From Chloroflexota bacterium (lineage in GTDB: Bacteria > Chloroflexota > Dehalococcoidia > DSTF01 > RBG-16-68-14): a DNA stretch of 35,189 bases. A program made the position numbers and the translations under genes. The notes under the pieces are model-generated. The model saw nothing but the letters and a program-made list of their open reading frames with translations, had not been told where the DNA came from and ran no database searches. Numbering within the stretch: position 1 is the stretch's first letter; every line of letters starts with the position of its first letter. The DNA is taken from the NCBI GenBank assembly GCA_022565155.1, contig JADFKB010000018.1:1-35189 (forward strand), read 5' to 3'. This document shows positions 17,911 to 35,189 of the stretch, piece by piece.

Positions 17911-17928
17911 GATGGCACGCACAGCCCG

Positions 17929-19925: not shown

Positions 19926-19958
19926 GCTGGGCGGCGAGCGCGCGAAAGGTACACGCAG

Positions 19959-21482: not shown

Positions 21483-21513
21483 CGCTGGCGTTACGAATCT
21501 GAGGCAGGCGAGC

Positions 21514-22620
21514 ATGAAGCTTTCAGAGATACCGACACCGGCCCTGCTCATCGACGTGCCGGCGATGCAGCGGAATATAGAACGCATGGCGGAGTTCTTT
21601 GCCGAAGGGCAGTGCAGGCTGCGGCCGCACTTCAAAGCGCACAAGACGCCGGAGATCGCCCGCCGCCAGCTCGCGGCCGGCTCATGCAGCGGCCTCACCT
21701 GCGCGACGGTGGACGAGGCGGAGGTGATCGCCGCCGAAGGGCTGACGGACGACGTGTTGATCGCGAACCAGGTCGTGGGGCCGGGCAAGGCCATCCGCGT
21801 CGCCAAGCTCGCCGCGAGCGCCGATTTCGATATCAAAGTCGCCGTCGATTCCGAGGCCGGCCTCGCTGACCTGGCGCAGGCGGCGCAGGACGCCGGCGTC
21901 GAGATCGGCGTCGTCGTCGATGTCAACGTCGGCCTGCCGCGCTGCGGCATCGCCCACGGCGAACCGGCGCTCGCGCTCGCCCGGAAAGTCGAGGCGACCG
22001 AAGGCGTGACCTTGCGCGGCCTGATGGGGTACGAAGGCCACGTCGTCGCGATCGAAGATCGCGCCGAACGGGAGGCGCGCACGGCGAAGGCGATGTCGCG
22101 GCTGCTGGAGACAGCGCAGCTACTGCGCGAGGACGGCCTCCCCTGCGACATCGTCAGCGCCGGCGGCACCGGCACCTACGACATCACGGGGCGCATGGAG
22201 GGCATCACGGAGATTCAGGCGGGCTCCTACGTCCTCATGGACAGCGCGTACGCGAAGCTGGACATCCCGTTCGAGCAGGCGTTCAGCGTCCTGGGCACGG
22301 TGCTCAGCCGGCCGCGGCCGGAGCTATGCGCCGCCGATAACGGCCACAAGGCATGCAGCCAGGACCACGGCAACCCCGATGTGAAGGGCGTCGACGGCGC
22401 GAGCGTGCTATTCCTGAGCGACGAGCACGCGACGATCGCGCTGCCGCCAGAGAGCGCGATCGCCGTCGGCGACCGCATCGAACTCTGGCCTTCCCACATC
22501 GACCCGACGATCAACCTCCACGATGTCCTGTACGCGATCGAAGGCGTCGAAGTCGCCGGCGTCTGGCCGATCAGCGCGCGGGGCTACGCAGAACAGCGGA
22601 AGAGCGGCCGTGATTCGTAG
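21514..22620 (+). CDS. D-threonine aldolase/DSD1-like PLP enzyme (alanine racemase N-terminal fold)
   Basis: A 368-residue fold-type III PLP enzyme. It starts EIPTPALLIDVPAMQRNIER, typical of D-threonine aldolases and D-serine dehydratases; the PLP lysine lies in RPHFKAHK (37-44, probably K41). IVSAGGTGTYD (about 212-222) binds the PLP phosphate. The C-terminal metal site reads SHID with His328 and Asp330. His-x-Asp is the Mn site of D-threonine aldolase, while D-serine dehydratase (DSD1) has His-x-Cys with zinc; this comparison is from memory of the structures. The likely reaction is cleavage of a beta-hydroxy-D-amino acid to glycine and an aldehyde. It begins 31 bp after the GMC gene and overlaps the next gene by 11 nt. 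Confidence 0.82.
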   Translation: MKLSEIPTPALLIDVPAMQRNIERMAEFFAEGQCRLRPHFKAHKTPEIARRQLAAGSCSGLTCATVDEAEVIAAEGLTDDVLIANQVVGPGKAIRVAKLAASADFDIKVAVDSEAGLADLAQAAQDAGVEIGVVVDVNVGLPRCGIAHGEPALALARKVEATEGVTLRGLMGYEGHVVAIEDRAEREARTAKAMSRLLETAQLLREDGLPCDIVSAGGTGTYDITGRMEGITEIQAGSYVLMDSAYAKLDIPFEQAFSVLGTVLSRPRPELCAADNGHKACSQDHGNPDVKGVDGASVLFLSDEHATIALPPESAIAVGDRIELWPSHIDPTINLHDVLYAIEGVEVAGVWPISARGYAEQRKSGRDS

Positions 22621-23758
22621 AACTGGTCATCGTGGCATCTGGATGGTGGCGTCAGTAATCCTGGCTGGAATCGTTATAGCCGCATGTAGCAATGATGGAG
22701 GTGTCGACGTGGCGCAGCCAAGCGATATTGCCAGCGACAGCGAGGTGACGATCCTGCGGACGGACGCCGGCCTCGAGTTCGTGCGCACCCCGGACGAGCG
22801 CTTCGAGGGGCTGTTCGAATATCCCTTCGAGCCGAACTACGTCACGATCGACGGGTTGCGCATGCACTACGTGGACGAAGGGCCGGCGGACGGTGAGGTC
22901 GTTCTCTTGCTACACGGCGAGCCGAGTTGGTCGTACCTCTACCGGAAGATGATCCCGATCCTCGCGGACGCCGGCCATCGCGTGATCGCACTCGATATGA
23001 TGGGCATGGGCCGGTCGGACAAGCCGATCGACCTGAGCGTCCACACCTACGCCCAAGAGATCGACTGGGTTACGCGCTTCATCGAAGCGTTAGACCTGCA
23101 GGAGATCACGCTCTTCTGTCAGGATTGGGGCAGCCTGATCGGCCTGCGCATCGTCGGCGACCATCCGGAGCTGTTTGCCCGCGTGGTAGCGGCGAACGCG
23201 CGCCTGCCGGTGATACCGCCCGGCTTCAATCCGTTCACTGTCCCTGAGGTGATAGAGATCGATCCTGCTAAAGGCGGCTTCGCTGAGCTGCGGGCTTCAA
23301 TGTTGGGGTTAGCGCAACCTGAGGCGTTCCAGCTCTGGATCGAATACTCGCTCACTGCGCCCAACCTGACGCCAAGTGAGGTGATCGAAGAGTTAACCGC
23401 CAACACGCTGTCAGCCGAAGAGCGAGCGGGCTACGACGCGCCATACCCCAGTCTGATCTACAAAGCGGCCATCCGCGCCTTCCCTTCGATGATCGTCGCT
23501 GTTGAGGACGAGAACGCGCCGGCCTGGGCAGCCCTTCAAGCGTACGAGAAGCCTTTTCTCACGCTGTTCGGACGGCTGGATCAAAACCTCGGCTCGGAGG
23601 AGACGCAGAAACTGCTCACTGAAAACATCCCGGGCGCCAGGGGCCAGCCGCACGACCAGTTCCAGGCGCACCACTTCATTCAAGAAGACATCGGCGAGAT
23701 TCTGGCCGAACGGGTAAACGCATTCATCGCGGACAACCCTACTTCACCTTCGCAGTAA
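22610..23758 (+). CDS. Haloalkane dehalogenase with lipoprotein signal peptide
   Basis: A 382-residue paralogue of the 19035 gene. Residues 1-26 form a lipoprotein signal: basic MIRRTGHRGIW, hydrophobic VASVILAGIVIAAC, with lipid-attachment Cys26, then a polar linker to about residue 55. The catalytic domain keeps HGEPSWSYLYRKM (102-114), FCQDWGS with nucleophile Asp172 and Trp173, FGRLDQNLGSEET where the acid is expected, and His in QAHHFIQED. So it looks active and sits outside the cytoplasmic membrane, unlike known haloalkane dehalogenases, which are mostly soluble cytosolic. GTG 22610 is chosen to keep the basic n-region; ATG 22643 would remove it. It overlaps the PLP-enzyme gene, so the four genes are probably one operon. 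Confidence 0.85.
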   Translation: MIRRTGHRGIWMVASVILAGIVIAACSNDGGVDVAQPSDIASDSEVTILRTDAGLEFVRTPDERFEGLFEYPFEPNYVTIDGLRMHYVDEGPADGEVVLLLHGEPSWSYLYRKMIPILADAGHRVIALDMMGMGRSDKPIDLSVHTYAQEIDWVTRFIEALDLQEITLFCQDWGSLIGLRIVGDHPELFARVVAANARLPVIPPGFNPFTVPEVIEIDPAKGGFAELRASMLGLAQPEAFQLWIEYSLTAPNLTPSEVIEELTANTLSAEERAGYDAPYPSLIYKAAIRAFPSMIVAVEDENAPAWAALQAYEKPFLTLFGRLDQNLGSEETQKLLTENIPGARGQPHDQFQAHHFIQEDIGEILAERVNAFIADNPTSPSQ

Positions 23759-23807
23759 CCACACGGCGGCGTTAGCTTCCGGAAAACGCTCCGCGCGGCT
23801 CCTACGC

Positions 23808-23837
23808 TTGCCGGTTTTGGCCATAACGTGGTACGAT
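23808..23837 (+). promoter_or_regulatory. Promoter of the zinc-ribbon/RRM pair
   Basis: TTGCCG -35-like (23808-23813), 18-bp spacer, and TGG-TACGAT extended -10 (23829-23837). The transcript would carry a leader of about 90 nt, which is long for this window and might fold. Confidence 0.5.
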
Positions 23838-23932
23838 AGCTTCAGTAAGGTTTCCTCGTCCTCGAATCCCCGCGAAACGCCAATCTCGTATCGCGCTCGA
23901 CGACCAGGAGTAACGGCTTAGGAGGTCGTCAA

Positions 23933-24238
23933 GTGTCATATACAGATCGTACAATCACCTGCGGAGACTGCGGGCAGGGCTTTACCCACTCCGCGGATGA
24001 CCAGGAGTTCTTCGCGCAGAAGGGCTACACGGACCCGAAACGTTGTCCCAACTGCCGCCAGGCGCGAAAGTCTGAGCGCGGCGAGGGGGGCGGCTACGGC
24101 GGGCCCAAGCAGCTCTTCCCGGCAGTCTGCGCAGAGTGCGGCCAGGACACGGAAGTGCCGTTTGAGCCGCGCGGAGACCGGCCGGTCTACTGCCGTGACT
24201 GCTTCACGAAGCGGCAGCCTGCTCGCGGTAATTACTAA
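23933..24238 (+). CDS. Small double zinc-ribbon protein
   Basis: A 101-residue protein with two CxxC-x(n)-CxxC zinc ribbons. The first uses CGDCGQGF (10-17) with CPNCRQAR (38-45); the second uses CAECGQDTEVPF (66-77) with CRDCF (87-91). Between them is a glycine-rich linker. This matches the probable zinc-ribbon domain proteins and the CxxC-x17-CxxC type found beside cold-shock and RNA-binding genes, mostly in Chloroflexota and relatives (from memory). The likely role is nucleic acid or ribosome binding in the cytosol. GTG 23933 is supported by TAGGAGG. The next gene, an RRM protein, begins 46 bp downstream on the same strand, and the two are likely cotranscribed. Confidence 0.8.
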   Translation: MSYTDRTITCGDCGQGFTHSADDQEFFAQKGYTDPKRCPNCRQARKSERGEGGGYGGPKQLFPAVCAECGQDTEVPFEPRGDRPVYCRDCFTKRQPARGNY

Positions 24239-24284
24239 GCGCCAGCGGAACACAACACCATAGCTCGGAGGGCGAGGCTCTACG

Positions 24285-24557
24285 TTGGCTACGCTATTTG
24301 TCGGTAACCTAGCCGCAGATGTGAACGAGAACGACCTGCGGGCCGTCTTTGAGCCGTACGGCACGCTTACGTCCGTCCGGCACATCACGCGGCGCGGCCT
24401 CGCCTACGTAGAGCTAGACGACGAAGCGGCCAACGCCGCCATCGAAGGGCTGCGCGGCGAGCAACTCAAGGGCCGCACGCTGGATGTCGCGATGGACAGG
24501 CCGGCCGGCGGCAGGCCCGGCGGCGGCGGCAGGCGGCGCGGTCGCGGCCGACGCTAG
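24285..24557 (+). CDS. RRM-domain RNA-binding protein with Arg/Gly-rich tail
   Basis: A 90-residue single RRM protein. RNP2 is LFVGNL (4-9). RNP1 is RGLAYVEL (37-44), shorter and less aromatic than the usual KGFGFVEM. The C-terminal 20 residues are a Gly/Arg tail (GGRPGGGGRRRGRGRR), as in cyanobacterial cold-inducible Rbp proteins. It would bind single-stranded RNA and may act as an RNA chaperone in the cold. The TTG start at 24285 follows CGGAGGGCGAGG. It pairs with the zinc-ribbon gene upstream and is followed by a tandem hairpin repeat that may end the transcript. Confidence 0.88.
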   Translation: MATLFVGNLAADVNENDLRAVFEPYGTLTSVRHITRRGLAYVELDDEAANAAIEGLRGEQLKGRTLDVAMDRPAGGRPGGGGRRRGRGRR

Positions 24558-24595
24558 CAGCGGTACATCGTAACGTCGTCGAATCTGCGCGGCCG

Positions 24596-24679
24596 GTTTT
24601 TCGTTGTTGTGTGCGCGCTTTCGCGCGTGTGGCGGACGTTTTTCGTTGTCGCGTACGCGCTTTCGCGCGTGTGGCGGAC
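24596..24679. repeat. Two tandem 42-bp hairpin repeats
   Basis: Units 24596-24637 and 24638-24679 are head-to-tail and differ at about four positions. Each has a T-run (GTTTTTCGTTG) followed by the hairpin GCGCG-CTTT-CGCGC and ends GTGTGGCGGAC. A decayed third start follows. They lie 39 bp after the RRM gene and may serve as terminators. Confidence 0.75.
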
Positions 24680-24793
24680 GCGTTTTAGCGCCTACGCGTT
24701 ATCTTGTTGCCGGCGCGCTTCCACGGGTTAGCCCCTAATCTCAATCAGCGCCCTAACCTCGTCATCGTCGCCGAGCCTGATCCGCGCGCCGCG

Positions 24794-24802
24794 TGCTACA
24801 CT
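24794..24802 (+). promoter_or_regulatory. Extended -10 promoter of the SsuD-like gene
   Basis: TGC (24794-24796) plus TACACT (24797-24802). The start near 24809 gives a 29-nt leader to the TTG start at 24838 with ATAGGAGG. Confidence 0.5.
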
Positions 24803-24837
24803 GCCGGAGCTAAACCGAACGCATAGGAGGTAGCGCC

Positions 24838-25953
24838 TTGACCGCCCCGAACGAAGAGATGAAGCCGCTGCGATTCGGCTGGTTCGTCCCTACATCCGGC
24901 GACACCAGCGCCTTTAGCGACCCGGACGCCACCATCCCGCCCAGCCTGGAGCATTTCACCAACGTCGCGCTGGCGGCGGAGTCGGCAGGTTTCGAGTATG
25001 TGCTCGTGCCCGTCCAGACGCTGTGCTACGAGGCCTGGGTCTCCTGCGCGATGATCGCCGCCCGCACGGAACGCCTCCAGCCGCTGATCGCGGTCCGCGC
25101 CGGCTACATGCTGCCGTCGCAGATGGCGAAGATGTTCACCACGTTCGATCAGCTCACCCAAGGCCGTGTCTGCATCAACCTGATCGCCGGGCCGGGGGGC
25201 GAGGAGCAGGCCGCCGAGGGCCTCTTCTACGGACACGATGAGCGATACGAGGTGATGGAGGAGACGGTCAGCCTCATGAAGCGGCTCTGGACGGAAGAGT
25301 CGCCGGTGACGCACCACGGCAAGCACTTCCAGATCGAGAAGGGGATCGTCCGGCCGCGGCCGTACCAGAAGCCGCACCCGCCCTTCTACATCGGCGGCAG
25401 CTCACCGGCCGCCAAGGAGGTCGGCGCGAAACACGCGAACGTCTACCTCTTCTGGGGCGATACGCCGGAGCGCATCGCGGAGCAGGTGGCCGAGGTGAGG
25501 CGGATCGCGGCGATATTCGGCCGCGAGGACGAGATCGGCTTCGGGATGCGGCTCCAGGTCGTCGTCCGCGAGACGGAAGACGAGGCGTGGGACGCCGCGC
25601 ACGCGATCATCGCCGGCGCGCCGGAGGTGCTGAAGGACGCAATTAAGAATATGTGGGCGGAATCGCAGGCGAACAGCCGGATGAAAGAGCTATCGCAGGC
25701 CGAAGACTATCGTATCGCGGAGCATCTCTGGAGCGGCTTCACCACGGTGCGGCCGGGCGCGGGCGTTGCCATCGTCGGCAACCCCCAGCAGGTGGCCGCG
25801 ACGCTGCAGGAGTTCATCGACCTCGGCTGCACCGACTTCTGCCTCTCCGGCTACCCCCACCACACGGAGGCCGAGCGTTTCGGCAAACTGGTGATGCCTC
25901 TCTTCGCAGACCGCGTAGCGAATCCGCCGGTCGCCGCCGGCACGGCGGGTTAG
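24838..25953 (+). CDS. SsuD-like FMNH2-dependent monooxygenase (LLM class)
   Basis: A 371-residue luciferase-like TIM-barrel protein of the alkanesulfonate monooxygenase type. Motifs: FGWFVPTSGDTSAF near the start, LAAESAGFEYVLVPVQT (about 42-58), LIAVRAGYMLPSQMAKMFTT (82-101), GRVCINLIAGPGGEEQA (108-124), GHDERYEVMEE (about 131-141) and YIGGSSPAAKEVGAKHANVY (about 184-203). SsuD relatives cleave C-S bonds with FMNH2 and oxygen; others in the group oxidise dimethylsulfone, EDTA-like chelators or cyclic ketones. A partner flavin reductase is not encoded nearby. The TTG start is fixed by a strong AGGAGG. It belongs to a different branch from the LLM protein at 13134. Confidence 0.88.
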   Translation: MTAPNEEMKPLRFGWFVPTSGDTSAFSDPDATIPPSLEHFTNVALAAESAGFEYVLVPVQTLCYEAWVSCAMIAARTERLQPLIAVRAGYMLPSQMAKMFTTFDQLTQGRVCINLIAGPGGEEQAAEGLFYGHDERYEVMEETVSLMKRLWTEESPVTHHGKHFQIEKGIVRPRPYQKPHPPFYIGGSSPAAKEVGAKHANVYLFWGDTPERIAEQVAEVRRIAAIFGREDEIGFGMRLQVVVRETEDEAWDAAHAIIAGAPEVLKDAIKNMWAESQANSRMKELSQAEDYRIAEHLWSGFTTVRPGAGVAIVGNPQQVAATLQEFIDLGCTDFCLSGYPHHTEAERFGKLVMPLFADRVANPPVAAGTAG

Positions 25954-25973
25954 TCCAGACTCCAGTGTGACGG

Positions 25974-26738
25974 CTAGACGTCGGCGTTGCCGCGGCGACG
26001 CCGACGCTGCTGCATGAGACGGCTGTAGAGCAGCAGGTCCGGGTCGCTGTAGGTGGCTTCCCCAGCCTCCGTACCGCGCCGCAGCGCCTTCATCGATGCC
26101 TTTGTCATCGCCACCGGCAGCGCCGGCATCGCGACGACCTTCGCCGCCAGCTCGCGCGCGACGTTCAGCTCGTCCCCCTCGTCGGCCAGGTGTGTCAACA
26201 GCCCGTAATCGAGTGCCTGCTCCGCGCTGAACCGTTCGCAGAGCACCGTCAGCTCCAGCGCCTTCGCATGGCCGACGGCCCTGGCCAACCGGGGCAGCGC
26301 GTTCCAACTGAGCGGGATGCCCAGCTCCACCTCTGGAATCGAGAACCAAGCGTTGCGGCCGCCGACGCGGAAGTCGCAGGCGGAGGCGAGGACGACGGCG
26401 CCGCCGACGGCGAAGCCGTGCACGGCCGCGATCGAGATCTGGTCAAGGTTCTCCAGCGCCGCCGATGTCCTGCTGCCGATGCCGGACTGGTTGCGCAACT
26501 CCAGCTCGTTGTCCGGGCCGGGCTTGCCCCACTCGCTCGTGTCCGCCCCGGCGGAGAACGCCGCACCCGCACCGGCCAGGATCACGACACGCGTATCGAA
26601 GTCGTCCGCTAGCTCCAGACAGATCTGTTGGATGTCCCGATGCATCTGGCGGTTGATGGCGTTGCGCTTCTCCGGCCGGTTCATCCGCACCGTCATCACC
26701 GCACCATCGCGCTCAACGGTTAGCGTCTCATATTCCAT
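25974..26738 (-). CDS. Enoyl-CoA hydratase/isomerase family protein
   Basis: A 254-residue crotonase-fold enzyme. It has NRPEKRNAINRQM near the start, GAGAAFSAGADTSEWG (oxyanion loop and first acidic region, about 55-70), AAVHGFAVGGAVVLASACDF (the second oxyanion strand, about 105-124), and PEVELGIPLSWNALPRLARA (about 136-155). The canonical second catalytic Glu region reads VELGIPLSW, so a hydratase is plausible, but crotonase relatives differ widely in reaction. ATG 26736-26738 is preferred over GTG 26747 because GAGGGG lies 9 nt before it. The last 19 residues are Arg-rich (MQQRRRRRGNADV). A truncated in-frame relic of this gene occurs at 29480-29608. Confidence 0.88.
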   Translation of the reverse strand: MEYETLTVERDGAVMTVRMNRPEKRNAINRQMHRDIQQICLELADDFDTRVVILAGAGAAFSAGADTSEWGKPGPDNELELRNQSGIGSRTSAALENLDQISIAAVHGFAVGGAVVLASACDFRVGGRNAWFSIPEVELGIPLSWNALPRLARAVGHAKALELTVLCERFSAEQALDYGLLTHLADEGDELNVARELAAKVVAMPALPVAMTKASMKALRRGTEAGEATYSDPDLLLYSRLMQQRRRRRGNADV

Positions 26739-26781
26739 CCTGGTCACCCCTCAGAATCGTCCGCGCCCTTTGCGAGAATGA

Positions 26782-26811
26782 CGAAGGCCCTCGAGCGTTC
26801 GAGGGCCTTCG
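26782..26811. terminator. Long hairpin, 13-bp perfect stem
   Basis: CGAAGGCCCTCGA (26782-26794) pairs with TCGAGGGCCTTCG (26799-26811) around a GCGT loop. It lies 23 bp after the cohesin protein stop and before the hydratase start, all on the minus strand. There is no T-tract, so termination would be factor-dependent, or it could be an RNA processing element. Copy B has it as a fully palindromic 30-mer. Confidence 0.6.
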
Positions 26812-26834
26812 CGTCCTATCGAGATGATCTTCGC

Positions 26835-27992
26835 CTAACGCCGCCTGGGCAGATCCGTGCCCGGCGCGGCGTCGAACTTGCTGTTCGCCAGCTCCTCTCG
26901 CGCGGCGATCAGCCAGCTCAGCGCGCGGCGGCGAGGCCGGCCCGTGCCGGTTGCCGGCGCGTCTACCGGGGCCGACGCCAGCACGTCAGATGTCGCGAGC
27001 GAATCGAACGGGCCACTGGCCCGAGGCGCAGGCGGCTGCTGACGCGCCGGCCCGCCCTGCGAGGAGCGGTTGGAGCCGGTGACGAACGCCAGGCCGGCGC
27101 CGGCGATGCCGGTGCTCAGCCAGGCGATGCCCGCGCCGATCAGACCGGCGATCAGCCAGATCTGCACGGTGGCGGTGTCCAGGCTGCCCGGGCCGGTTCC
27201 CGCGTCCGGCAGTCCATTGCCGTTGCCGGTCAGCGACGGCAGGCTCTCGCACGCGATGCCGTCACCATCAGAATCGAGGTTGAACGGATCAGACGGGTCG
27301 GCGTCGTAGACCGCCTGGGCTTCTTCTTGGAACTCAAAGTCGTTGCAGTCCACGCCCGGCGAGCGTTTCGGCAGGTTCTCGCAGGCAAAGCCGTCGCCGT
27401 CTTCATCCAGCCCGGCCGGATCAGTCGGATCGGAGTCGAGCGCCGCCTGGGCGTCTTCCTGGAACGTGAACGCGCTGCACGGGTCGCCGGGCGTCGGCGA
27501 TGGGCCGCCCGCTATACAAGCGAACAGGCCGTTTTGGATCTTCTGCGTGAGAGGCTGCGGATCGCCGATCGTCGCGTCCGCCAGCACGTCGACGATGATG
27601 GAGAGGCCGCTCACGCCCTCGCTCAAACAAGCGAAGGTGATGCTCGCAAGCTTCGTGTCGCCCAACAGACCCGTGGCATTGGCACCCGTGAAGCGGACCA
27701 CCCCAGGAGCGAAATTTGCGTTGCAGACGCCGCCCTGCTCCGCAGTGCAGCTCTCGGCGGAGATGACCGCTGAGTCGTACTCCACATCGATCGACCAGGC
27801 GCCCAAGCCTTCCCCAGCGACGTTAAGGGACGACACGTCTACCGATGCCTGGCCATCCAGCGCAACGCTGGCTGAATCGACGGCGATGAGCGCGCCAACA
27901 GCCGATGTCTGCGCAACCGTCATGACGAACAGCAGCGCGGCTCCCACGATCGCTCCTGCCAAGCCGATGCCGAACCTCTTCCGTCGATTCAT
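26835..27992 (-). CDS. Membrane-anchored surface protein with cohesin-like and two excalibur-like domains
   Basis: A 385-residue exported protein. Signal peptide: basic MNRRKRF, then IGLAGAIVGAALLFVMTVAQ. A cohesin-like beta-sandwich (about 35-150) begins IAVDSASVALDGQASVDVSS and includes GLGAWSIDVEYDSAVI and LLGDTKLASITFACL. Two excalibur-type calcium-binding modules follow, with DEDGDGFACENLP and DSDGDGIACESLP, each preceded by a CxxFxFQE-type segment. Then a membrane helix, VQIWLIAGLIGAGIAWLSTG with continuation, and a basic C-terminal tail rich in Arg. So it is a surface protein held by one helix; the cohesin domain would bind a dockerin partner, none of which is in the window. ATG 27992 is preferred (GGAGGG 7 nt upstream; GTG 27995 is too close). 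Confidence 0.8.
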   Translation of the reverse strand: MNRRKRFGIGLAGAIVGAALLFVMTVAQTSAVGALIAVDSASVALDGQASVDVSSLNVAGEGLGAWSIDVEYDSAVISAESCTAEQGGVCNANFAPGVVRFTGANATGLLGDTKLASITFACLSEGVSGLSIIVDVLADATIGDPQPLTQKIQNGLFACIAGGPSPTPGDPCSAFTFQEDAQAALDSDPTDPAGLDEDGDGFACENLPKRSPGVDCNDFEFQEEAQAVYDADPSDPFNLDSDGDGIACESLPSLTGNGNGLPDAGTGPGSLDTATVQIWLIAGLIGAGIAWLSTGIAGAGLAFVTGSNRSSQGGPARQQPPAPRASGPFDSLATSDVLASAPVDAPATGTGRPRRRALSWLIAAREELANSKFDAAPGTDLPRRR

Positions 27993-28189
27993 CACTACTC
28001 CCTCCGCTAACGGATCTTCCCCAAGACCTCGGGAACGGTCTGCCCACCTGGGGGCGCTGGCACGGTAACGAGCAGGGGAGGGGCAAATCGAGACGTTATG
28101 TATGAATGTGGAGAGATAACGGTGGGCTGTGGATTATTTAGCCCGGAGCCAGGCTGAAGGATGAGTTTGCGGCAGCTACACGCGCTGCC

Positions 28190-28216
28190 AGCCATCACTC
28201 CTGATCGGAGTTGGCC
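28190..28216 (-). promoter_or_regulatory. Conserved leader hairpin, copy A
   Basis: The minus-strand RNA near its 5' end folds as GGCCA-ACTCC-GATCA-GGAGT-GA-TGGCT: ten pairs with a GA bulge. The same shape occurs in copy B at 30690-30717. It lies about 10 nt after the predicted transcription start, in a leader of about 234 nt that no coding region explains. Confidence 0.5.
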
Positions 28217-28232
28217 TGCTACCATCGCAGTT

Positions 28233-28260
28233 ATTATACACCAGCCTTGTAACGGGTCAA
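28233..28260 (-). promoter_or_regulatory. Sigma70 promoter of cohesin protein gene, copy A
   Basis: On the minus strand TTGACC (28260-28255), 16-bp spacer and TATAAT (28238-28233). Same hexamers and spacing as copy B. Confidence 0.7.
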
Positions 28261-28417
28261 TAGAATACCGGGGCGGCCGCGCTAAATACGAATCGCCGGG
28301 TTTACCGTTCAGATCGACGCCATGCGCAGCAAACTCAGCTGCGCAGGCCCACAAGCGGGTGAGTCCTAGCGACAGACTATGGCTGCGGTAAGCCCGACAG
28401 CGAACGTTGCCCCGTTC

Positions 28418-28426
28418 TGGTAGAAT
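28418..28426 (+). promoter_or_regulatory. Extended -10 promoter of the zinc-ribbon/coiled-coil gene
   Basis: TGG (28418-28420) plus TAGAAT (28421-28426); predicted start near 28433, 38 nt before the ATG at 28471. Confidence 0.45.
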
Positions 28427-28470
28427 CGCAGCACAACAACGGACTGACTGGGGGATGAAGGGTACCGCCC

Positions 28471-29019
28471 ATGGGTGGTCAGTGTGTCGAGTGTGGCCGT
28501 TCTCTGAACGACTCTGAGGTTCGCTACGGCTGGACACGCTGTTATGTATGTGCCCGTGGCCCGGAACCGCCCGGTGGCCCTAGGAACTCCACAAGTCTTG
28601 AGAGAGAGAGTGAAGGAGGGAAGGACCTCGTGACGAGGAGAATACAGATTTCGGTACCGCTGCCACTTCCGCCCGGCTGGCTTCTCGGTGCGTTGGTTGC
28701 CCTGACGGTTGTGGGCGCATTCATGGCAATCGACCGAACAGAGGGTCACTGGTATGCGCCGGACGAGCAGCGAATAGATGCCGTAGAGGCTGCGATAATA
28801 GATGCCGCAAGAGAAAGAGCCGACGCAAACGGAGAGATTGCACGGCTGCGAGAACGCGTCAGCGCAGTGGAAACAGGACTGGGCGCGCCCTCCAGCACGA
28901 ACGCCAGCTCAATACAGTCAATGTCGTGCTCTCAAGTCAGCGAGGAAATCGCCGACGTCTTGGACGACCTAAGGCTTCAGAGTCTTCAACGCGAGCACGT
29001 CTTGAGGTGCGAAGCCTAG
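28471..29019 (+). CDS. Unknown protein with N-terminal zinc ribbon, membrane helix and coiled coil
   Basis: A 182-residue protein, not recognised as a known family. Residues 5-27 form a small zinc ribbon (CVECGRSL and CYVCARG). A single membrane helix spans about 69-86 (GWLLGALVALTVVGAFMAI). After that comes a heptad-like charged helix with IDAVEAAIIDAARERADA and EIARLRERVSAVETGL, then a Ser-rich stretch and a C-terminal helix with two further cysteines. Topology: zinc ribbon inside, coiled coil outside, or the reverse. Composition is less GC-rich than the surrounding genes. It lies between the two halves of the segmental duplication, on the opposite strand. GAAGGG lies upstream of the ATG. 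Confidence 0.65.
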   Translation: MGGQCVECGRSLNDSEVRYGWTRCYVCARGPEPPGGPRNSTSLERESEGGKDLVTRRIQISVPLPLPPGWLLGALVALTVVGAFMAIDRTEGHWYAPDEQRIDAVEAAIIDAARERADANGEIARLRERVSAVETGLGAPSSTNASSIQSMSCSQVSEEIADVLDDLRLQSLQREHVLRCEA

Positions 29020-29479
29020 GCGCTCAGTCAGGACGTAGCCTCGCTTGCCCACGTTGCCCAACGCCACAAAGGAGTGTTGGGATGTCGGCTCGCTTGCCGC
29101 GCCACAAAGGGAACTTGGCTCCTTTGGCCGCCTTGTCATCCTCTAATAAGAATGCGGAACTGAGTTCCTGAGCGCGTTTTGCACAACCCCCTAAAAGGGG
29201 CGAGGTGTTCGGGAGCTTGCTTCCCTTGCGGTGTTTGAGGCCCACCACAAAAGAGACGCAGGGCCTCTCGTAGCTAGGCACCATCCTCGGTAACCTGGTC
29301 GTCGTTTCCCAGAGCCTACTTGACCCAGCCTCCACAGCTGCACGGCGCCGCGAATACAGTTTGGTGGCCCTCCTGTGCTCCTGTAGTCGTGCTTGTAGGT
29401 GCCTCAGGTATGATCGGTGCGTAGATAAAGGGCGACTTGCGTCGCGACAGGACGCTACCGAGGCGTGTGGGCGTGAAGT
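29020..29479. other. Gene-free, lower-GC stretch with several small hairpins
   Basis: No convincing gene. Visible inverted repeats: CCCAAC/GTTGGG near 29056, GGAAC-TGA-GTTCC near 29157, CCCCT-AAA-AGGGG near 29187, and GCGAC-TTGC-GTCGC near 29431. Open frames here have no start signal and odd composition. It could be decayed coding DNA or hold an untranslated RNA. Confidence 0.4.
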
Positions 29480-29608
29480 CTATAGGTGGAAGCAACGTAC
29501 GGCCTCCGTATCGCGCCGTAGCGCCTTCATCGAGGCCTCTGTCATCCGCACCGTCATCACCGCACCATCGCGTTCAACGGTTAGCGTCTCATAGTCTATT
29601 CTGGTCAC
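29480..29608 (-). pseudogene. In-frame deleted relic of the enoyl-CoA hydratase gene
   Basis: Homologous to the gene at 25974. Its first 65 or so bases match the hydratase N-terminus (YETLTVERDGAVMTVRM) and then jump to the C-terminal region (TEASMKALRRDTEA). The missing 576 bp (equivalent to 26110-26685) is exactly 192 codons, and TCATC occurs at both edges in the intact copy. The start ATG has become ATA, and only the upstream GTG could open this 42-codon frame. All catalytic parts are gone. It is the end of duplication copy B. Confidence 0.75.
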
Positions 29609-29642
29609 TTCTCAGAATCGTTCGCGCCCTGTGCGAGAATGA

Positions 29643-29672
29643 CGAAGGCCCTCGAACGTTCGAGGGCCTTCG
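29643..29672. terminator. 30-bp perfect palindrome after the copy-B cohesin gene
   Basis: Perfectly self-complementary: CGAAGGCCCTCGAAC (29643-29657) followed by its exact reverse complement to 29672. It is the counterpart of 26782-26811, where one centre base differs. It lies 23 bp past the stop codon on the minus strand, without a T-tract. Confidence 0.6.
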
Positions 29673-29695
29673 CGTCTCATCGAGATGATCTTCGC

Positions 29696-30583
29696 CTAGC
29701 GGCGCCTGGGCGGATCGGCTCCTGACGCGGCGTCGAACTTGCCGCTCGCCAGCTCCTCGCGCGCGGCGATCAGCCAGTTCAGCACGCGGCGGCGAGGCCG
29801 ACCTGTTCGAACCGACGGCTCGTGTGCTGGAGCCGATGTCAGCACGAACGGGCCACTGGCCTCAGGCGGCTGCTGCCGTGGCGATCCGCCCCGCGAAGAG
29901 CGGTTGGAGCCGGTGACGAACGCCAGGCCGGCGCCGACGACGCCGGTGCTCAGCCAGGCGATGCCAGCGCCGATCAGACCGGCGATCAGCCAGATCTGGA
30001 CGTTATCCGTACCCAGGCTGCCCGGGCCGGTCCCCGCGTCCGGCAGCGATTCGCTCAGGACATCTGACGTGCCGCTGTCGGTCAGCGGCGGCGAGCCGAC
30101 CGCCACACAAGCGAACCTGCCGTTTTGGGTATTCGGCGTCAGAGGCTGCGGATCGCCGATCGTCGCGTCCGCCAGCTCGACGACGACGACCGTGAGGTCG
30201 CTCATGCCCTCGGTCAAACAAGCGAAGGTGATACCGGCGAGCTTCGTGTCGCCCAGCAGACCGACCGCGCTGGCGCCCGTGAATCGGACGACACCGTCAG
30301 CGAAGTTCGGGTTGCAGACGCCGCCCTGCTCTGCGGTGCAGCTCAGGGCGAAGATGATCGCCGAGTCGTACTGCACATCGACCGTCCACGCGCCCAAGCC
30401 TTCCCCAGCGACGTCAAGGGCCAACGCATCTACCGACGCCTCGCTGCCCAGCGCAACGGTAGCTGATTCGACGGCGATAACCTCGCCTACGGCCGATGTC
30501 TGCCCAGCCGTCATGCCGAACAGCAGCACGACGCCCGCGATTGCGCCGGCCAGGCTGATACTGAATCTCTTTCGTCCGATCAT
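29696..30583 (-). CDS. Membrane-anchored cohesin-like surface protein, short paralogue
   Basis: A 295-residue paralogue of the 26835 gene. Signal peptide MIGRKRFSISLAGAIAGVVL and onward; cohesin-like domain (about 35-150) with VALGSEASVDAL, GLGAWTVDVQYDSAII and LLGDTKLAGITFACL; then a short linker that reads straight into SLPDAGTGPGSLG and the membrane helix VQIWLIAGLIGAGIAWLSTG, with an Arg-rich tail ending PPRRR. The two excalibur modules of the long form are absent. The conserved cohesin core and tail differ by many substitutions, so the duplication is not recent, yet the frame is intact. ATG 30581-30583 has GGAGGG upstream. It has its own copy of the promoter and leader hairpin. Confidence 0.78.
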   Translation of the reverse strand: MIGRKRFSISLAGAIAGVVLLFGMTAGQTSAVGEVIAVESATVALGSEASVDALALDVAGEGLGAWTVDVQYDSAIIFALSCTAEQGGVCNPNFADGVVRFTGASAVGLLGDTKLAGITFACLTEGMSDLTVVVVELADATIGDPQPLTPNTQNGRFACVAVGSPPLTDSGTSDVLSESLPDAGTGPGSLGTDNVQIWLIAGLIGAGIAWLSTGVVGAGLAFVTGSNRSSRGGSPRQQPPEASGPFVLTSAPAHEPSVRTGRPRRRVLNWLIAAREELASGKFDAASGADPPRRR

Positions 30584-30689
30584 CACTGTCCCTCCGCTAA
30601 CGGATCTTCCCCCTCTAACCTTTCCAACACGTTCCGCGAATAGCCGTTACAGACTCGTCCCCCTCACATAGATCGAGAGAAAACGAACC

Positions 30690-30717
30690 GGCCATCGCTC
30701 CTGAGTTTGAGTTGGCC
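30690..30717 (-). promoter_or_regulatory. Conserved leader hairpin, copy B
   Basis: Minus-strand RNA folds as GGCCA...GA-TGGCC with an inner CTC/GAG pairing. The outer closing pair changes from G-U in copy A to G-C here, keeping the stem. It sits about 10 nt from the predicted 5' end. Confidence 0.5.
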
Positions 30718-30733
30718 CACTACCAGCGCAGTT

Positions 30734-30761
30734 ATTATACATCGGCCCTGTAACGGGTCAA
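30734..30761 (-). promoter_or_regulatory. Sigma70 promoter of cohesin protein gene, copy B
   Basis: On the minus strand TTGACC (30761-30756), 16-bp spacer and TATAAT (30739-30734), giving a leader of about 144 nt. Confidence 0.7.
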
Positions 30762-30850
30762 GAGAATGCCGGAGCGGCCACGCTGAGTGCGTAGCGCCGG
30801 GTTTACCATTCAGATCGACGCCATACGCAGCGCAGTCAGCTTCGCAGGCT

Positions 30851-31044
30851 CCGATTCAGACGCTTCGATAACTCTCTATAAATATCGGTTACGTGCGCGT
30901 TCGGCTCCAGGCCTGGCGGTTAGCCGCAATAGGGAATACGCGTACTTCTCCCTTGCGCGCCTGTACATAAGCGTTAGCGGCCACCGGGGCGTTTGCAATC
31001 AGTCAGAACGGCACCGTGTGAAAGAGGAAGCGAGCTGCGTACAG
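30851..31044. other. Gene-free stretch
   Basis: Nothing convincing between the end of duplication copy B and the GGDEF-like gene. An open frame at 30787-31104 overlaps both neighbours' sequence and has no ribosome site. Confidence 0.4.
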
Positions 31045-31437
31045 CTACGCGGCATCCTCCATGAGGCGTTTCAGTTGTGCCTTGTTCTGCGGAAACGCAA
31101 GTAGTTCGTAATCCCAGCCGCTCTCTGTATCGCCGAATGCGGCGCGGAGACGTTCTAGAAGAGCGGCGGCGCCGGAAACATCGGTCTCAGGCAGCAAGAC
31201 GAGCACCATGGATTCACCGTCTAGGATGCATACCACATCGCAGCCGCGTGTGAGGCCGTTCGCCACAACGTCCAGAGATGGGGCGCTGAACTGCCTCACG
31301 TGCTCCGGGGGCCGCAGCGTCAGGATGGTAAAGGGGTGTCCGTACCGATCACTGCGGACTATCTCATCGGCAAGCCGCTCCAAGAGCTCTGCGCCGCTCA
31401 CAATCACCTGTTGTCGATCATCGGCATCGGATCTCAT
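31045..31437 (-). CDS. Degenerate GGDEF-like domain protein
   Basis: A 130-residue cytosolic protein. The pattern is that of a GGDEF fold: IVRSDRYGHPFTILTLRPPE (N-terminal helix and first strand), DVVANGLTRGCDVVCILDGE (helix and hairpin), and MVLVLLPETDVSGAAALLER (strand and helix). The catalytic GGDEF is replaced by DGESM, and the domain lacks about 30 residues of a full diguanylate cyclase, so it should be inactive; it may bind a nucleotide or a partner. No sensor domain is attached. ATG 31437 has GGAGG 6 nt upstream, and that site lies within one arm of a 10-bp inverted repeat. It stands alone, between gene-free DNA and tRNA-Arg. Confidence 0.6.
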   Translation of the reverse strand: MRSDADDRQQVIVSGAELLERLADEIVRSDRYGHPFTILTLRPPEHVRQFSAPSLDVVANGLTRGCDVVCILDGESMVLVLLPETDVSGAAALLERLRAAFGDTESGWDYELLAFPQNKAQLKRLMEDAA

Positions 31438-31443
31438 CTCAAA

Positions 31444-31497
31444 CCTCCGTCGTTACGTTCGACTCCTAGTATTATTCTCGGCACGTCACGACGGAGG
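31444..31497 (-). promoter_or_regulatory. 10-bp inverted repeat covering the ribosome-binding site
   Basis: CCTCCGTCGT (31444-31453) and ACGACGGAGG (31488-31497) are perfect complements 34 bp apart. On the minus strand the proximal arm contains the Shine-Dalgarno of the GGDEF-like gene, so an RNA starting upstream could hide it. A -10-like AATACT lies within the loop, so a DNA operator around the promoter is the alternative. Confidence 0.5.
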
Positions 31498-31578
31498 CGT
31501 AGACCCACCAAGCCCATCGTGAATTAGACGGGGGTTTCTTACATGATCTGCCGTTGGGGGTGCTGTAATCGCTAGATA

Positions 31579-31654
31579 TGGCGCGCCCGGAGGGATTCGA
31601 ACCCCCGACCCTCGGTTCCGAAGACCGATGCTCTGTCCACTGAGCTACGAGCGC
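31579..31654 (-). tRNA. tRNA-Arg (anticodon TCG)
   Basis: Minus strand. Acceptor GCGCTCG/CGGGCGC, D-arm GCTC/GAGC, anticodon stem TCGGT/ACCGA with loop CTTCGGA (anticodon TCG), T-arm GGGGG-TTCGAAT-CCCTC, discriminator G at 31582 and encoded CCA at 31581-31579. Confidence 0.96.
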
Positions 31655-31857
31655 GTGAACCGCGCAGCCTTGCCGGCTGTTGCGCCAACGGCGCAGGCTG
31701 CGTACAGTGGCGTCGCGGAGCGCCGACGCTACGCAGCACCGTGTCAGTCTAACATAGCCGTTTTCGCACTCTCAACGAGATTGCGCAAGGCTGCGCGAAG
31801 GCGAACCAGCAGGCAGCAACGCACCACGAAGGACGGGATTCCAGTCAGAGGCGCACG

Positions 31858-33222
31858 ATGGCCGACGAGACGACCGCGCAAGACCAGGACGACTCGGCGC
31901 TGCGCGACGCGCAACGCCTGCTGGAGTCGGAATCGACCGATGCCGGCCTGACCCGGCTCGCCGCTCTCCACCCGGCAGACCAGGCCCACGTCCTCAGCCA
32001 GCTCGATTCTGAGCTACGCGCGCCGCTCCTCTCGCGCATCTCCCAACCTGCGCTGGCTGAGATTTTTGAATACCTGAAAGACGAGCCGCGCCACGCCGTC
32101 GTCGATGAGCTGGCGACGGCGCTGCTCGGCCCGCTGCTCGACCAGGTTGACCGCGACATCGCCGTCGATATCCTGCACGGCCTGTCGCCGGAGCGGGCGC
32201 AGCAGGCGCTGGCCGCGATGACCAGCGCGCCAGACATCGCGCCGCTGCTCGCGCACCCGGACGAGACGGCCGGCGGCCGCATGACGACAGACTACGTCGC
32301 GTTCCAGCGAGACTGGACGGTCGAGCAGGCGCTCTCGTACCTGCGGCGCACCCGGCCGGCGGCGGAGCAGGTCTTCTACCTCTATGTGGTGGATAGCGAG
32401 GAGCGGCTGGAAGGCGTGGTCAGCCTGCGCCAGATCGTCGTCGCCGAGCCGGAGGAACGGATCAGCACGCTGATGACGCCGGAAGTGGTGAGCGTGCTCG
32501 CCACGGCGGACCAGGAGGAGGCGGCGCGGCGCGTCCAGCGCTACAACTTCATCGCGCTGCCCGTCGTCGACGAGCGGCAGCGGCTCATCGGCGTCGTCAG
32601 CATCGACGACCTGATGGACGTGGCGGAGGAGGAGGCGACGGAGGACATGTACCGCATGGCGGGCCTGGCCGAGCGCGAGAGCCTGCAACGGCCTGTCGCC
32701 CGTTCGCTGCTACCGAGACTTGGCTGGCTGCTGGTCGCGCTCGTCTCCGTCTTCGCGGCGGCGGCGGTCGTCGACGCCTTTGAGGGGACTATAGAGCGGG
32801 CGGCGGCGCTGGCGGTCTTCATGCCCGTGATCGCCGGCCTGGGCGGCAACGCCGGCGTGCAGACGATTACGCTCGTCGTGCGCTCGCTCGCTCTCGGAAA
32901 TGTGGAGCTGCGCGATGTCCGGCGCGTGCTGTTGCGCGAGCTGCTGATCGGCGTCACCAACGGCGTCATTTTCGGCCTGATCGTGGGGCTGTTGATCTTC
33001 GCTTGGAAGGGAAACGTGGGGCTGAGCGTCGTCGCCGGCGTCGCCATGCTGCTCAACATGACGATGGCTGTCACAGCCGGCGTGCTGGTGCCGGTTTCCC
33101 TGCGCGCGCTGCGATTAGATCCCGCCCTCGCCTCCGGCGTGCTGGTGACGACGTTCACCGATGTATTAGGCTTCTTCTTTTTCCTGGGGCTGGCGACGCT
33201 GATGATTGATCGTATCGCCTAG
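31858..33222 (+). CDS. mgtE: MgtE-family magnesium channel
   Basis: A 454-residue MgtE protein of normal length. N-terminal MgtE_N helical domain (about 15-130, with LAALHPADQAHVLSQLD and AVDILHGLSPERAQQALAAM), a TAGGRMTTDYV linker, two CBS domains (about 145-265; VVDSEERLEGVVSLRQIVVA and LPVVDERQRLIGVVSIDDLM) that sense Mg inside the cell, a connecting helix, then five membrane helices from about 290. The channel motifs are PVIAGLGGNAGVQT and TTFTDVLGFFFFLGLA, which carries the conserved Mg-binding Asp. ATG 31858 has only a weak site (CAGAGG). No clear Mg riboswitch is seen in the 200 bp before it. It is convergent with the lipoprotein gene, with a 10-bp gap. Confidence 0.93.
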   Translation: MADETTAQDQDDSALRDAQRLLESESTDAGLTRLAALHPADQAHVLSQLDSELRAPLLSRISQPALAEIFEYLKDEPRHAVVDELATALLGPLLDQVDRDIAVDILHGLSPERAQQALAAMTSAPDIAPLLAHPDETAGGRMTTDYVAFQRDWTVEQALSYLRRTRPAAEQVFYLYVVDSEERLEGVVSLRQIVVAEPEERISTLMTPEVVSVLATADQEEAARRVQRYNFIALPVVDERQRLIGVVSIDDLMDVAEEEATEDMYRMAGLAERESLQRPVARSLLPRLGWLLVALVSVFAAAAVVDAFEGTIERAAALAVFMPVIAGLGGNAGVQTITLVVRSLALGNVELRDVRRVLLRELLIGVTNGVIFGLIVGLLIFAWKGNVGLSVVAGVAMLLNMTMAVTAGVLVPVSLRALRLDPALASGVLVTTFTDVLGFFFFLGLATLMIDRIA

Positions 33223-33232
33223 GACGCCTCGC

Positions 33233-34198
33233 CTAGGGCGTTCGGCCGGCCGGCGTTGCGGTTGCGGCAGGCGTTTCGTCGGGATCGACCGGCTCGCGAG
33301 CGGGGTTCACTTGCACCTGGATGCGCACCTCGGTATAGCGATCCGACCGTGTGAACGGCGCGGCGAAGACATCGCCCTGGATGTCGGTCAGCTCATCGCG
33401 AAAATCGAACCGCCCCTCCAGCCCGAACGCCGCAGTATCCTGCACCGTCCAGCCGCGCTGCTGGAAGGCGTCGCGGTAGAACTCCAGCACCTCGTCCTGG
33501 GCGGCGGTCGTCAGGAAGATGACCAGGAAGCTCTCCAGCCCCGGCTCGCGGAAGAACGCCGTATCCGTGATCGTCGCGCCGGCAAATAGCGGGACGTCGG
33601 GCGGGAACGCAGCCGGCAGGGCGCGGCCGGGCGGCAGCTCGAACTGGGGCTGCTGATCGAGGAAGGCGCCGGCGTCCTGCATCGAGATGAGGATGCTGGT
33701 GCGATCATCGTCGCCGCCGGTCGCGATCGAGACGACGCCGGCGATATCGATGTCCTCCACGTTGAAGAACTGGAGCGTGTCCAACTGGCTCATGGAGAAG
33801 CTGCTCTGTAGCTGCCACGGGTCCTCCTCCAGCGCCTGTTCATAGAACGTTCGTACTGCATCTGCATCGTCCGCCGTGTCCAGCACGATGAAGTAGAGCA
33901 CCGGCTGTGCCACCACGTCCGCCTCTTGCCCTGAATCGCCGGCGCTGACCGGCGTCCGCTCACGACTGGAGACGATGATCTCGGCGCCGGGGTAGAGCGG
34001 CGGCTGCGCGGGCAAGCCGTCCGGCAGGCGGCCGGGAAAGCTATCGAGCGCTTCACTGCCTTGCGTACCCGCCGCAAGCAGCAAGCGGTGGATGATGCCG
34101 GCGGCGCTGTCGTCCTCGGCGCCGCCGCCGCAGCCGCTAGCGGCGAGGAGCGCGGCGGCCAGAATCGCCGCTGGAATCGCACACAGATACAATCGCAC
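33233..34198 (-). CDS. Lipoprotein of unknown function with two internal repeats
   Basis: A 321-residue lipoprotein. Signal: MRLYLCAIPAAILAAALLAASGC with lipobox AASGC, so the lipid Cys is at about residue 23. The mature part holds two copies of one domain. The first has PPLYPGAEIIVSS then LYFIVLDTADDADAVRTFYE and EDPWQL; the second has DVPLFAGATITDTA then LVIFLTTAAQDEVLEFYRDA and QRGWTV. The shared pattern is P-x-P/A-GA-x-I ... FxxTxxxxxxVxxFYxxAxxxxxW. The C-terminus is Pro/Ala/Thr-rich. Function unknown. GTG 34198 has ACGAGG at good spacing; the longer ORF to 34300 would run into tRNA-His. Confidence 0.72.
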   Translation of the reverse strand: MRLYLCAIPAAILAAALLAASGCGGGAEDDSAAGIIHRLLLAAGTQGSEALDSFPGRLPDGLPAQPPLYPGAEIIVSSRERTPVSAGDSGQEADVVAQPVLYFIVLDTADDADAVRTFYEQALEEDPWQLQSSFSMSQLDTLQFFNVEDIDIAGVVSIATGGDDDRTSILISMQDAGAFLDQQPQFELPPGRALPAAFPPDVPLFAGATITDTAFFREPGLESFLVIFLTTAAQDEVLEFYRDAFQQRGWTVQDTAAFGLEGRFDFRDELTDIQGDVFAAPFTRSDRYTEVRIQVQVNPAREPVDPDETPAATATPAGRTP

Positions 34199-34257
34199 GC
34201 GGAACCTCGTTTTCGAATCGAAAGCCTGAGATCGCCGGGAGAGGAGCAGGCGGCGGG

Positions 34258-34334
34258 TGGGGTGGACGGAGGGATTCGAACCCTCGATCTCCTGGGCCAC
34301 AACCAGGTGCCTTAACCGCTAGGCTACGCCCACC
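34258..34334 (-). tRNA. tRNA-His (anticodon GTG)
   Basis: Minus strand. Acceptor GTGGGCG/CGTCCAC with the extra G-1 encoded at 34334, anticodon stem CCTGG/CCAGG with loop TTGTGGC (anticodon GTG), T-arm GAGGG-TTCGAAT-CCCTC, discriminator C at 34261 and encoded CCA at 34260-34258. Confidence 0.96.
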
Positions 34335-34377
34335 GCGAATAACGTCTGAAGTTCCAGAATCGAACCTCGACTGTGGC

Positions 34378-34406
34378 AGTCTACCACGGGCTTGTGGGCT
34401 TGACAA
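34378..34406 (-). promoter_or_regulatory. Promoter of tRNA-His
   Basis: On the minus strand TTGTCA (34406-34401), 17-bp spacer ending in TGG, and TAGACT (34383-34378). The -35 hexamer overlaps that of the divergent promoter. Confidence 0.6.
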
Positions 34407-34428
34407 ACAGCTACAGATGGGGGATACT
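34400..34428 (+). promoter_or_regulatory. Sigma70 promoter facing the secreted protein gene
   Basis: TTGACA (34400-34405), 17-bp spacer and GATACT (34423-34428). It would give a leader of about 250 nt to the ATG at 34686, unless a nearer promoter exists. Confidence 0.6.
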
Positions 34429-34685
34429 CTGCATGCTGTATGCGCTCCCCTTAGGCAGGAGTGCTGGTGGTAACCTCCCCGCTAGTGGTCTCGGAACGGG
34501 CTATCTATGCCTCGTATTCATCGTTCACGCGGTCAGCGCCGGAACAGGCGGGCGGCGCTGCTTGATCCGCGTGATCATGACGTAAAAATTGACGTGCGGA
34601 GGCGAAAGGAGGGGGCGCTAGGCACCAGGTAAGATTAGTAATCACACGTTTCACAGAAGAACATGATCGATTAGGAGGAAAACAA
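34429..34685 (+). other. Long leader or untranslated RNA region
   Basis: About 257 bp between a good promoter and the next gene, without a coding frame of its own. No known riboswitch, SRP RNA or 6S pattern was recognised. A strong AGGAGG lies just before 34686. Confidence 0.4.
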
Positions 34686-35189
34686 ATGCATCGCACGCGA
34701 ACTCGTTTGCGAATAAGTTTCGGCCTGGTTGCCATGATGGTCGTGCTGGCGATGGTCGCCTTCATGACCATGGTGAGCAGCAACGGCACGACGTCCGTGT
34801 CCGCCAGCGACCCGACGCCGACGGCAGGCGGGCCATCGGATGGGTTCAAGATCCTGGCCAAAGTAACCAAAGATAACCTTCCGATTCTCACCATCACCAA
34901 GAAAGGTGCCCAGACCATCTCGGTTGATGACAACGTCCTCTGGGGCGGAGACCGCTATCGGGTCACTGCCCGCGACGGGACGACTGTGACTATCGAAACG
35001 CAACCGTGCAATACTGATGACGGCGGCAGCTACCCACCGGACACGGATTGGGTCTACCAGCCGAACACGTGCCCGCCGCCGCCAACGCCAACGCCGCCGC
35101 CGCCAACGCCAACGCCGAGCGGCAAGCCCGGCACCGACGGCAACCTGAGCGGCGTCTCGGACCTGCAGGTCACCGCCGGCAACGGCGCA
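34686..35189 (+). CDS. Secreted protein with Pro/Thr linker, N-terminal part (cut by window edge)
   Basis: The first 168 codons of an exported protein; the frame stays open to the window end. Signal peptide: basic MHRTRTRLRIS, hydrophobic FGLVAMMVVLAMVAFMTMV, then SSNGTTSVSA with cleavage near residue 40. A small beta-rich domain follows (about 52-105, with FKILAKVTKDNLPILTITKK and RYRVTARDGTTVTIET) containing a single Cys, C107, before a Tyr/Asp-rich stretch and C128. Then a proline linker CPPPPTPTPPPPTPTPSG, encoded by two 21-bp direct repeats near 35079-35120, leads into a Gly/Asp-rich region. No family recognised; surface or extracellular. AGGAGG fixes the start. Confidence 0.75.
   Translation, partial: MHRTRTRLRISFGLVAMMVVLAMVAFMTMVSSNGTTSVSASDPTPTAGGPSDGFKILAKVTKDNLPILTITKKGAQTISVDDNVLWGGDRYRVTARDGTTVTIETQPCNTDDGGSYPPDTDWVYQPNTCPPPPTPTPPPPTPTPSGKPGTDGNLSGVSDLQVTAGNGA

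Follow-up and report, generated by a model that had tools for sequence, protein, structure and literature searches.

Why does a Chloroflexota genome carry two similar genes for exported cohesin proteins close to each other, and what would the second copy be kept for? Cohesin-dockerin pairs are best known from cellulose-degrading complexes. The window, i.e. the whole stretch of 35,189 nt that was analysed, is contig C31 (JADFKB010000018.1) of the draft genome G000, which comprises 2.8 Mb in 185 contigs and is 92.8% complete. The two genes, here termed A and B, are likely to encode paralogous membrane-anchored cohesins that hold dockerin proteins in a non-cellulosomal system, with B as a young duplicate that was probably transferred.

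The original prediction had described the locus as a segmental duplication that includes a surface-protein gene and has since diverged, and self-alignment of the window bore this out. Copies A and B form collinear direct blocks of about 83-84% identity within the following units.

26065-28348, minus strand: unit of copy A, outer limits of homology with copy B (direct repeats D1-D6 and D14-D16, alignment)
29502-30849, minus strand: unit of copy B (direct repeats and alignment)

The block pairs are 26681-27212 / 29542-30046 (83.8%), 27491-28022 / 30085-30612 (82.5%), 28188-28348 / 30688-30849 (84.0%) and 26065-26133 / 29502-29572 (83.1%). Because their BLAST E-values range from 1e-171 to 2e-15, the similarity is not due to chance. 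The collinear direct repeats include non-coding DNA, which is the pattern of a tandem segmental duplication: each copy consists of a promoter, a 24-nt block that precedes the start codon, the coding sequence of an exported cohesin protein, a 30-bp palindrome and, downstream, sequence of an enoyl-CoA hydratase gene (ECH), so that the similarity extends beyond the cohesin domain. The proposed spacing of 3.4 kb holds for the 3′ stub of ECH only (3437 bp), whereas the other blocks lie 2861, 2834, 2591 and 2501 bp apart. ECH is also the next gene that had been said to be partly repeated after B; it is, and its remnant is more complex than a simple truncation, with a 5′ stub fused to a 3′ stub through a 576-bp (192-codon) deletion.

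25974-26747, minus strand: intact ECH after A (Pfam ECH_1, 1.6e-40)
29502-29608, minus strand: ECH remnant after B (repeat spacings of 3437 and 2861, translation)

The two proteins are 73% identical and share their layout apart from one pair of modules.

26835-27995, minus strand: gene A, 386 amino acids (aa), with signal peptide, cohesin domain, two Excalibur modules, LPDAGTG motif, membrane segment and basic tail (open reading frame (ORF), Pfam, fold)
29696-30586, minus strand: gene B, 296 aa, layout as in gene A without Excalibur modules (ORF, alignment)
27492-27896, minus strand: cohesin domain of A (nine-stranded model, best Z 15.0 against solved cohesins)
30092-30487, minus strand: cohesin domain of B (alignment)
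27237-27493, minus strand: tandem Excalibur modules, in A only (internal repeat D5, 71%; Pfam)
27078-27209, minus strand: LPDAGTG motif and membrane segment of A (alignment)
29912-30043, minus strand: LPDAGTG motif and membrane segment of B (alignment, offset of repeat D3)

Excalibur (PF05901) was matched in two stretches of A, and in A only, with an E-value of 2.5e-6 and 28.1 bits against a cut-off of 22. Since all three A orthologues found in the relatives G002, G004 and G005 (G002A, G004A and G005A) carry the modules, B most likely lost both of them. The LPDAGTG motif, which may be a sorting motif, and the membrane segment are followed by a tail of about 80 residues, where a sortase-anchored protein would have a short basic end; one sortase is encoded in G000, and a sortase is present in six of six genomes. 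With an export signal, one outward cohesin domain, a C-terminal membrane segment with LPDAGTG and a basic tail each, A and B are predicted to be anchored in the membrane, where they would most likely serve as surface sockets that retain secreted dockerin proteins.

An AlphaFold model was built for A from 7 sequences, and the fold results concern A. The mean predicted local distance difference test score (pLDDT) was 61 and the predicted template modelling score (pTM) 0.40 overall, and most of the cohesin domain reached pLDDT values of about 74-92. In the model A folds as a cohesin, with the nine strands of this fold located at residues 42-161 and a short one at 37-39. Foldseek matched cohesins with E-values down to 4e-9. 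The best VIA-align match was a cohesin solved together with its dockerin (Z 15.0, root-mean-square deviation (rmsd) 2.5, 126 residues aligned), and among the 50 best matches listed the first 30 were cohesins or cohesin-like modules. A full-length family profile matched no solved structure. Calcium-dependent binding of dockerins by A and B is predicted, the evidence on dockerin partners consisting of co-occurrence and gene neighbourhood. Of the cysteines in 14 aligned cohesins of the family, three never vary and a fourth hardly does. With protein A as query, matches at E<=1e-5 were obtained in 6 of 40 genomes, namely the six of the window's family.

The 40 genomes were surveyed for cohesins (PF00963, E<=0.001) and dockerins (PF00404, E<=1e-4). 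Cohesins were found in 19 and dockerins in 20 genomes; 17 had both, 18 neither, 2 cohesins only and 3 dockerins only, and the counts of the two modules were correlated (Spearman 0.86, kinship ignored). The six genomes of the window's family (f1) hold 38, 27, 42, 4, 54 and 37 dockerin matches, compared with 0-19 elsewhere, the value for G000 being 38. Two traits of cellulosomes, dockerin-bearing proteins and a multi-cohesin scaffoldin, are present in G000, together with proteins consisting of a cohesin and a dockerin module. At least 19 of the 53 cohesin places listed have a dockerin adjoining or in the same frame. Of 46 dockerin candidates in G000, 39 were scanned (36 with Dockerin_1 at E<=0.001), the rest being short or fragmentary, and none of these 39 matched a glycoside hydrolase, the cargo expected of a cellulosome. 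Matches instead included arylsulfotransferase (2), subtilase (2), purple acid phosphatase, glucose/sorbosone dehydrogenase, solute-binding protein family 5, cupredoxin, proteinase inhibitor BsuPI, and RCC1 and PD40 repeats. Tens of genes are devoted to dockerins, and those scanned include no glycoside hydrolase, so that other kinds of secreted protein may be what the system retains at the cell; it would be a non-cellulosomal docking system that was expanded in this Chloroflexi family.

Three further loci of the system were recorded. The scaffoldin-like protein is an exported protein of 2022 aa (G000:C148, L118:2241-8309) with several cohesins, threonine-proline linkers, a dockerin-like stretch and an LPDTG and membrane end. 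Arylsulfotransferase-like proteins with C-terminal dockerins are encoded at L078:364-2088 (G000:C41) and L083:476-2164 (G000:C45). A gene order of a large dockerin protein, a cohesin protein and then a cohesin with a dockerin after it recurs across genera (L030 = G000:C14, G004:C44, G005:C99).

The presence of both copies in relatives was checked. A has orthologues beside ECH in G002, G004 and G005, the order being LLM-ECH-A in the window and in G005 and A-ECH in G002 and G004. Because this order is kept and all A orthologues carry Excalibur modules, A is, on comparative grounds, the inherited gene adjoining ECH and descended vertically; its synonymous distance (dS) to G002A is 1.26, similar to that of ECH (1.21), and the value for the partial LLM flavoprotein gene of the same two genomes is 0.76. 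A B-like gene was found in G002 and not in G004 and G005, which belong to the same genus as G002. The counted dS (NG86) is 0.35 between A and B and 0.16 between window B and G002 B; by maximum likelihood (ML) the values are 0.48 and 0.20. B is thus the young copy, and since its dS of 0.16 to G002 B compares with 1.21 for ECH, it probably moved between genera; the direction of transfer is suggested by the fact that the window contains A and B side by side. The DNA similarity between window B and G002 extends over 1331 bp at 84.7% and covers B and about 370 bp upstream, including non-coding DNA. In G002, B lies at another position, inverted between ECH and LLM. An extra ECH 3′ piece (L025:11515-11643) stands there beside LLM, on the far side of the B gene.

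The proposed course of events is as follows. A tandem duplication of about 2.3 kb would have given B, which would have kept the promoter, the ribosome site and the terminator-like palindrome, lost both Excalibur modules together with the greater part of ECH, and at a later time moved from one genus to another, while recombination between A and B would keep some flanks alike. Several observations weigh against this and against dockerin binding. The PF00963 match of A (E 2e-5, 25.3 bits) lies narrowly above the cut-off of 24.1, the Pfam scan of B gave no match at E<=0.1 despite its identity to A, a cohesin-only sequence profile matches solved cohesins weakly (best E 0.0022), and, apart from its cohesin and Excalibur regions, A is modelled with low confidence, the tail included. 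Among the places listed no dockerin gene stands beside A or B, unlike at 19 other cohesin places. Moreover, the genomes compared are related and not independent, the B-like gene recurs in one relative only, and dS estimates are rough on a G+C-rich genome.

The missing dockerin neighbour and the weak sequence match to solved cohesins would suit an alternative in which A and B employ the cohesin fold for general adhesion or for stabilising the envelope, without a dockerin partner; solved cohesin-like modules outside cellulosomes exist as well (2xdh, 2jh2). We regard this as unlikely, since A and B belong to the same family as cohesins that adjoin or are fused to dockerins and since cohesin and dockerin counts rise together.

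A second alternative concerns the history of the pair: B could be old in the family and the A locus overwritten by B-type sequence through gene conversion, so that A and B would look young for this reason alone and would not be recent duplicates. The divergence signal does vary along the unit. In a three-way comparison the ratio of sites unique to A to sites unique to G002 B was 84:54 in coding sequence and 17:32 in the flanks (Fisher p 0.0025), with 1:12 in the 3′ flank and 18:3 in the signal peptide. The 3′ flank differs by 0.07 between A and B and by 0.22 between B and G002 B, an order that is reversed in the signal peptide (0.21 and 0.06). Yet no B-like gene was found in G004 and G005, and the A-G002A distance close to that of ECH is as expected for a vertical A, so that overwriting of the whole locus is judged improbable. 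The mosaic suggests that the copies have recombined in patches (gene conversion) and fits conversion in the 3′ flank together with a replacement of the A leader.

Selection on B was assessed by ML estimates of omega, the ratio of nonsynonymous to synonymous rates, between window B and G002 B; the ML estimate for A-G002A was saturated and not used. For the cohesin domain the estimate was 1.02, which does not differ from 1, and for the signal, membrane and tail parts it was 0.30 (twice the log-likelihood difference 12.9 against omega 1); the A-type pair G004A-G005A gave 0.21 for the cohesin. The signal, membrane and tail parts of B are thus under purifying selection, and its cohesin domain is read as relaxed or diversifying, the data fitting either. 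Positive selection on this domain was considered from a counted omega of 1.22 (interval 0.66-2.4) but is not claimed, the ML value not being above 1. Residues changed between the B copies occur in eight of nine strands without a clear cluster. That B is a decaying copy with an unconstrained cohesin on its way to loss would agree with the omega of 1.02 and is quite improbable given a frame that is open in both genomes, an intact promoter, ribosome site and palindrome, and the constraint on the signal, membrane and tail parts.

The claim of two surface proteins with different roles is plausible in view of the missing Excalibur modules of B and of the two omega values, and A and B may have different partners. 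An extension of the paralogue reading, to which we give little likelihood, is that B could be a mobile, fast-changing cohesin socket, with anchor and control elements kept or gene-converted and a cohesin face free to change, so that strains would display different dockerin sets. If true, this would amount to a diversifying surface docking code, with sulfotransferase-, phosphatase-, protease- and dehydrogenase-like cargo replacing cellulases. A young anchored cohesin pair, one member of which probably crossed genera, would in any case be a natural place to study how docking specificity changes after duplication.

The control elements of the two copies are located as follows.

28233-28260, minus strand: promoter of A, TTGACC-16-TATAAT (promoter-pattern searches)
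30734-30761, minus strand: promoter of B, TTGACC-16-TATAAT (promoter-pattern searches)
28053-28201, minus strand: leader segment of A without counterpart in B (87% copy at G000:C70:2884-3032)
27999-28022, minus strand: 24-nt block of A with small hairpin and ribosome site (24/24 identical to B and G002 B)
30589-30612, minus strand: 24-nt block of B with small hairpin and ribosome site (24/24 identical to A)
26782-26811, minus strand: palindrome after gene A, a terminator-like hairpin without long T run (fold z -5.9)
29643-29672, minus strand: palindrome after gene B (repeat and stem search)

As predicted, hexamers and palindrome are nearly unchanged between the copies: the -35 and -10 hexamers are identical and belong to the two best of 7 promoter-like sites in 16000-35189, the palindromes differ at 1 of 30 sites and the pre-start blocks at 0 of 24. 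The two palindromes are the sole perfect stems of >=13 bp (loop 0-10) within the window. Selection on expression, which had been deduced from this, is partly supported. The hexamers recur in G004 and G005 with one transition, which favours a conserved promoter, and window A, window B and G002 B have the same 24-nt block without any difference. On the other hand, the dead ECH stub of B is about as unchanged as the palindrome region (8 of 107 sites differ from A, 4/64 and 4/43, which is below the synonymous difference pS of 0.28 for the genes), and the flank pattern fits gene conversion. Given how unevenly A, B and G002 B diverge, a nearly unchanged palindrome does not by itself demonstrate selection on expression.

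Most of the 5′ leader, which had been described as repeated with its hairpin, is not common to the two copies: the promoter-proximal part and the 24-nt pre-start block are, but the approximately 149 nt between them are absent from B. This segment of A has one further copy in six genomes, on contig C70 of the same genome. Since the leader of B is similar to its counterpart in G002 B and, to a lesser degree, to the leaders of G004 A and G005 A, the A leader was probably replaced. Rfam identified three tRNAs only in the window and nothing near a family cut-off in the A leader, by which a known riboswitch was rejected. A structured regulatory leader was not supported either, with z values of -1.2, 0.6 and 0.4 against shuffles for the A leader segment and both pre-start stretches. 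The palindrome was rejected as a dispersed repeat, good matches in six genomes occurring only at A, B and G002 B. The promoter was likewise rejected as a signal common to cohesin and dockerin genes, since in six genomes its pattern is confined to window A, window B, G004 A and G005 A; the reversed-pattern control of this search gave no match. The 149-nt segment holds a short inverted repeat, CGTTAT/ATAACG, and its C70 copy (L055:2884-3032) precedes another exported-protein gene on a contig that also carries a dockerin gene.

A single surface-anchored cohesin, similar to A and B, is the layout of cell-surface anchoring cohesins such as Coh-OlpA. The cohesin fold of A is common to Coh-OlpA of Clostridium thermocellum (PDB 3ul4, Z 13.1), CaCohA2 (PDB 6kgc, Z 15.0) and the non-cellulosomal cohesin of Archaeoglobus fulgidus (PDB 2xdh, Z 14.4, rmsd 3.1), the latter with 18% sequence identity and in an archaeal context. 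Unlike cellulosomal and anchoring cohesins, A and B have a long tail after their C-terminal membrane segment and four mostly conserved cohesin cysteines, and G000 differs from cellulosomes by the lack of glycoside hydrolases among the 39 scanned candidates. According to the excerpted description of the ‘Planctosome’ of freshwater Planctomycetes (PMC6461901), cohesin and dockerin modules occur there without sign of cellulose degradation, with anchoring and adaptor (cohesin plus dockerin) proteins, one proposed anchoring protein that measures 2210 aa and has a lamin tail domain and, as in G000, peptidases as proposed cargo. Compared with that proposal, the cohesin proteins of the Chloroflexi are numerous and small, a multi-cohesin protein with LPDTG is present, and dockerins number in the tens. 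The excerpted account of Ca. Stygibacter (Cloacimonadota) describes a cellulosome-like complex with a multi-cohesin scaffoldin-like protein and a dockerin-bearing S8-type peptidase, as well as two glycoside hydrolases with dockerins, unlike those scanned in G000 (PMC8542988). By these accounts, similar non-cellulosomal cohesin-dockerin systems had already been proposed from genomes of both phyla (PMC6461901, PMC8542988), and the Chloroflexi system is a variant of this kind, distinguished by its cargo and by its numerous small anchored cohesins. For cohesin or dockerin in Chloroflexi, SAR202 and Dehalococcoidia, the titles and abstract beginnings in the literature described no such system, which is not a claim of absence from print.

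Phage records gave no match to the window DNA. Between the copies, at 28471-29019, a plus-strand gene encodes a protein of 182 aa whose N-terminus is zinc-ribbon-like and which contains a membrane segment as well as a coiled coil; no Pfam family was above cut-off. Further along, the minus-strand ORF 33233-34300, taken from its longest start, overlaps the tRNA gene 34261-34333, and its true start therefore probably lies further in.

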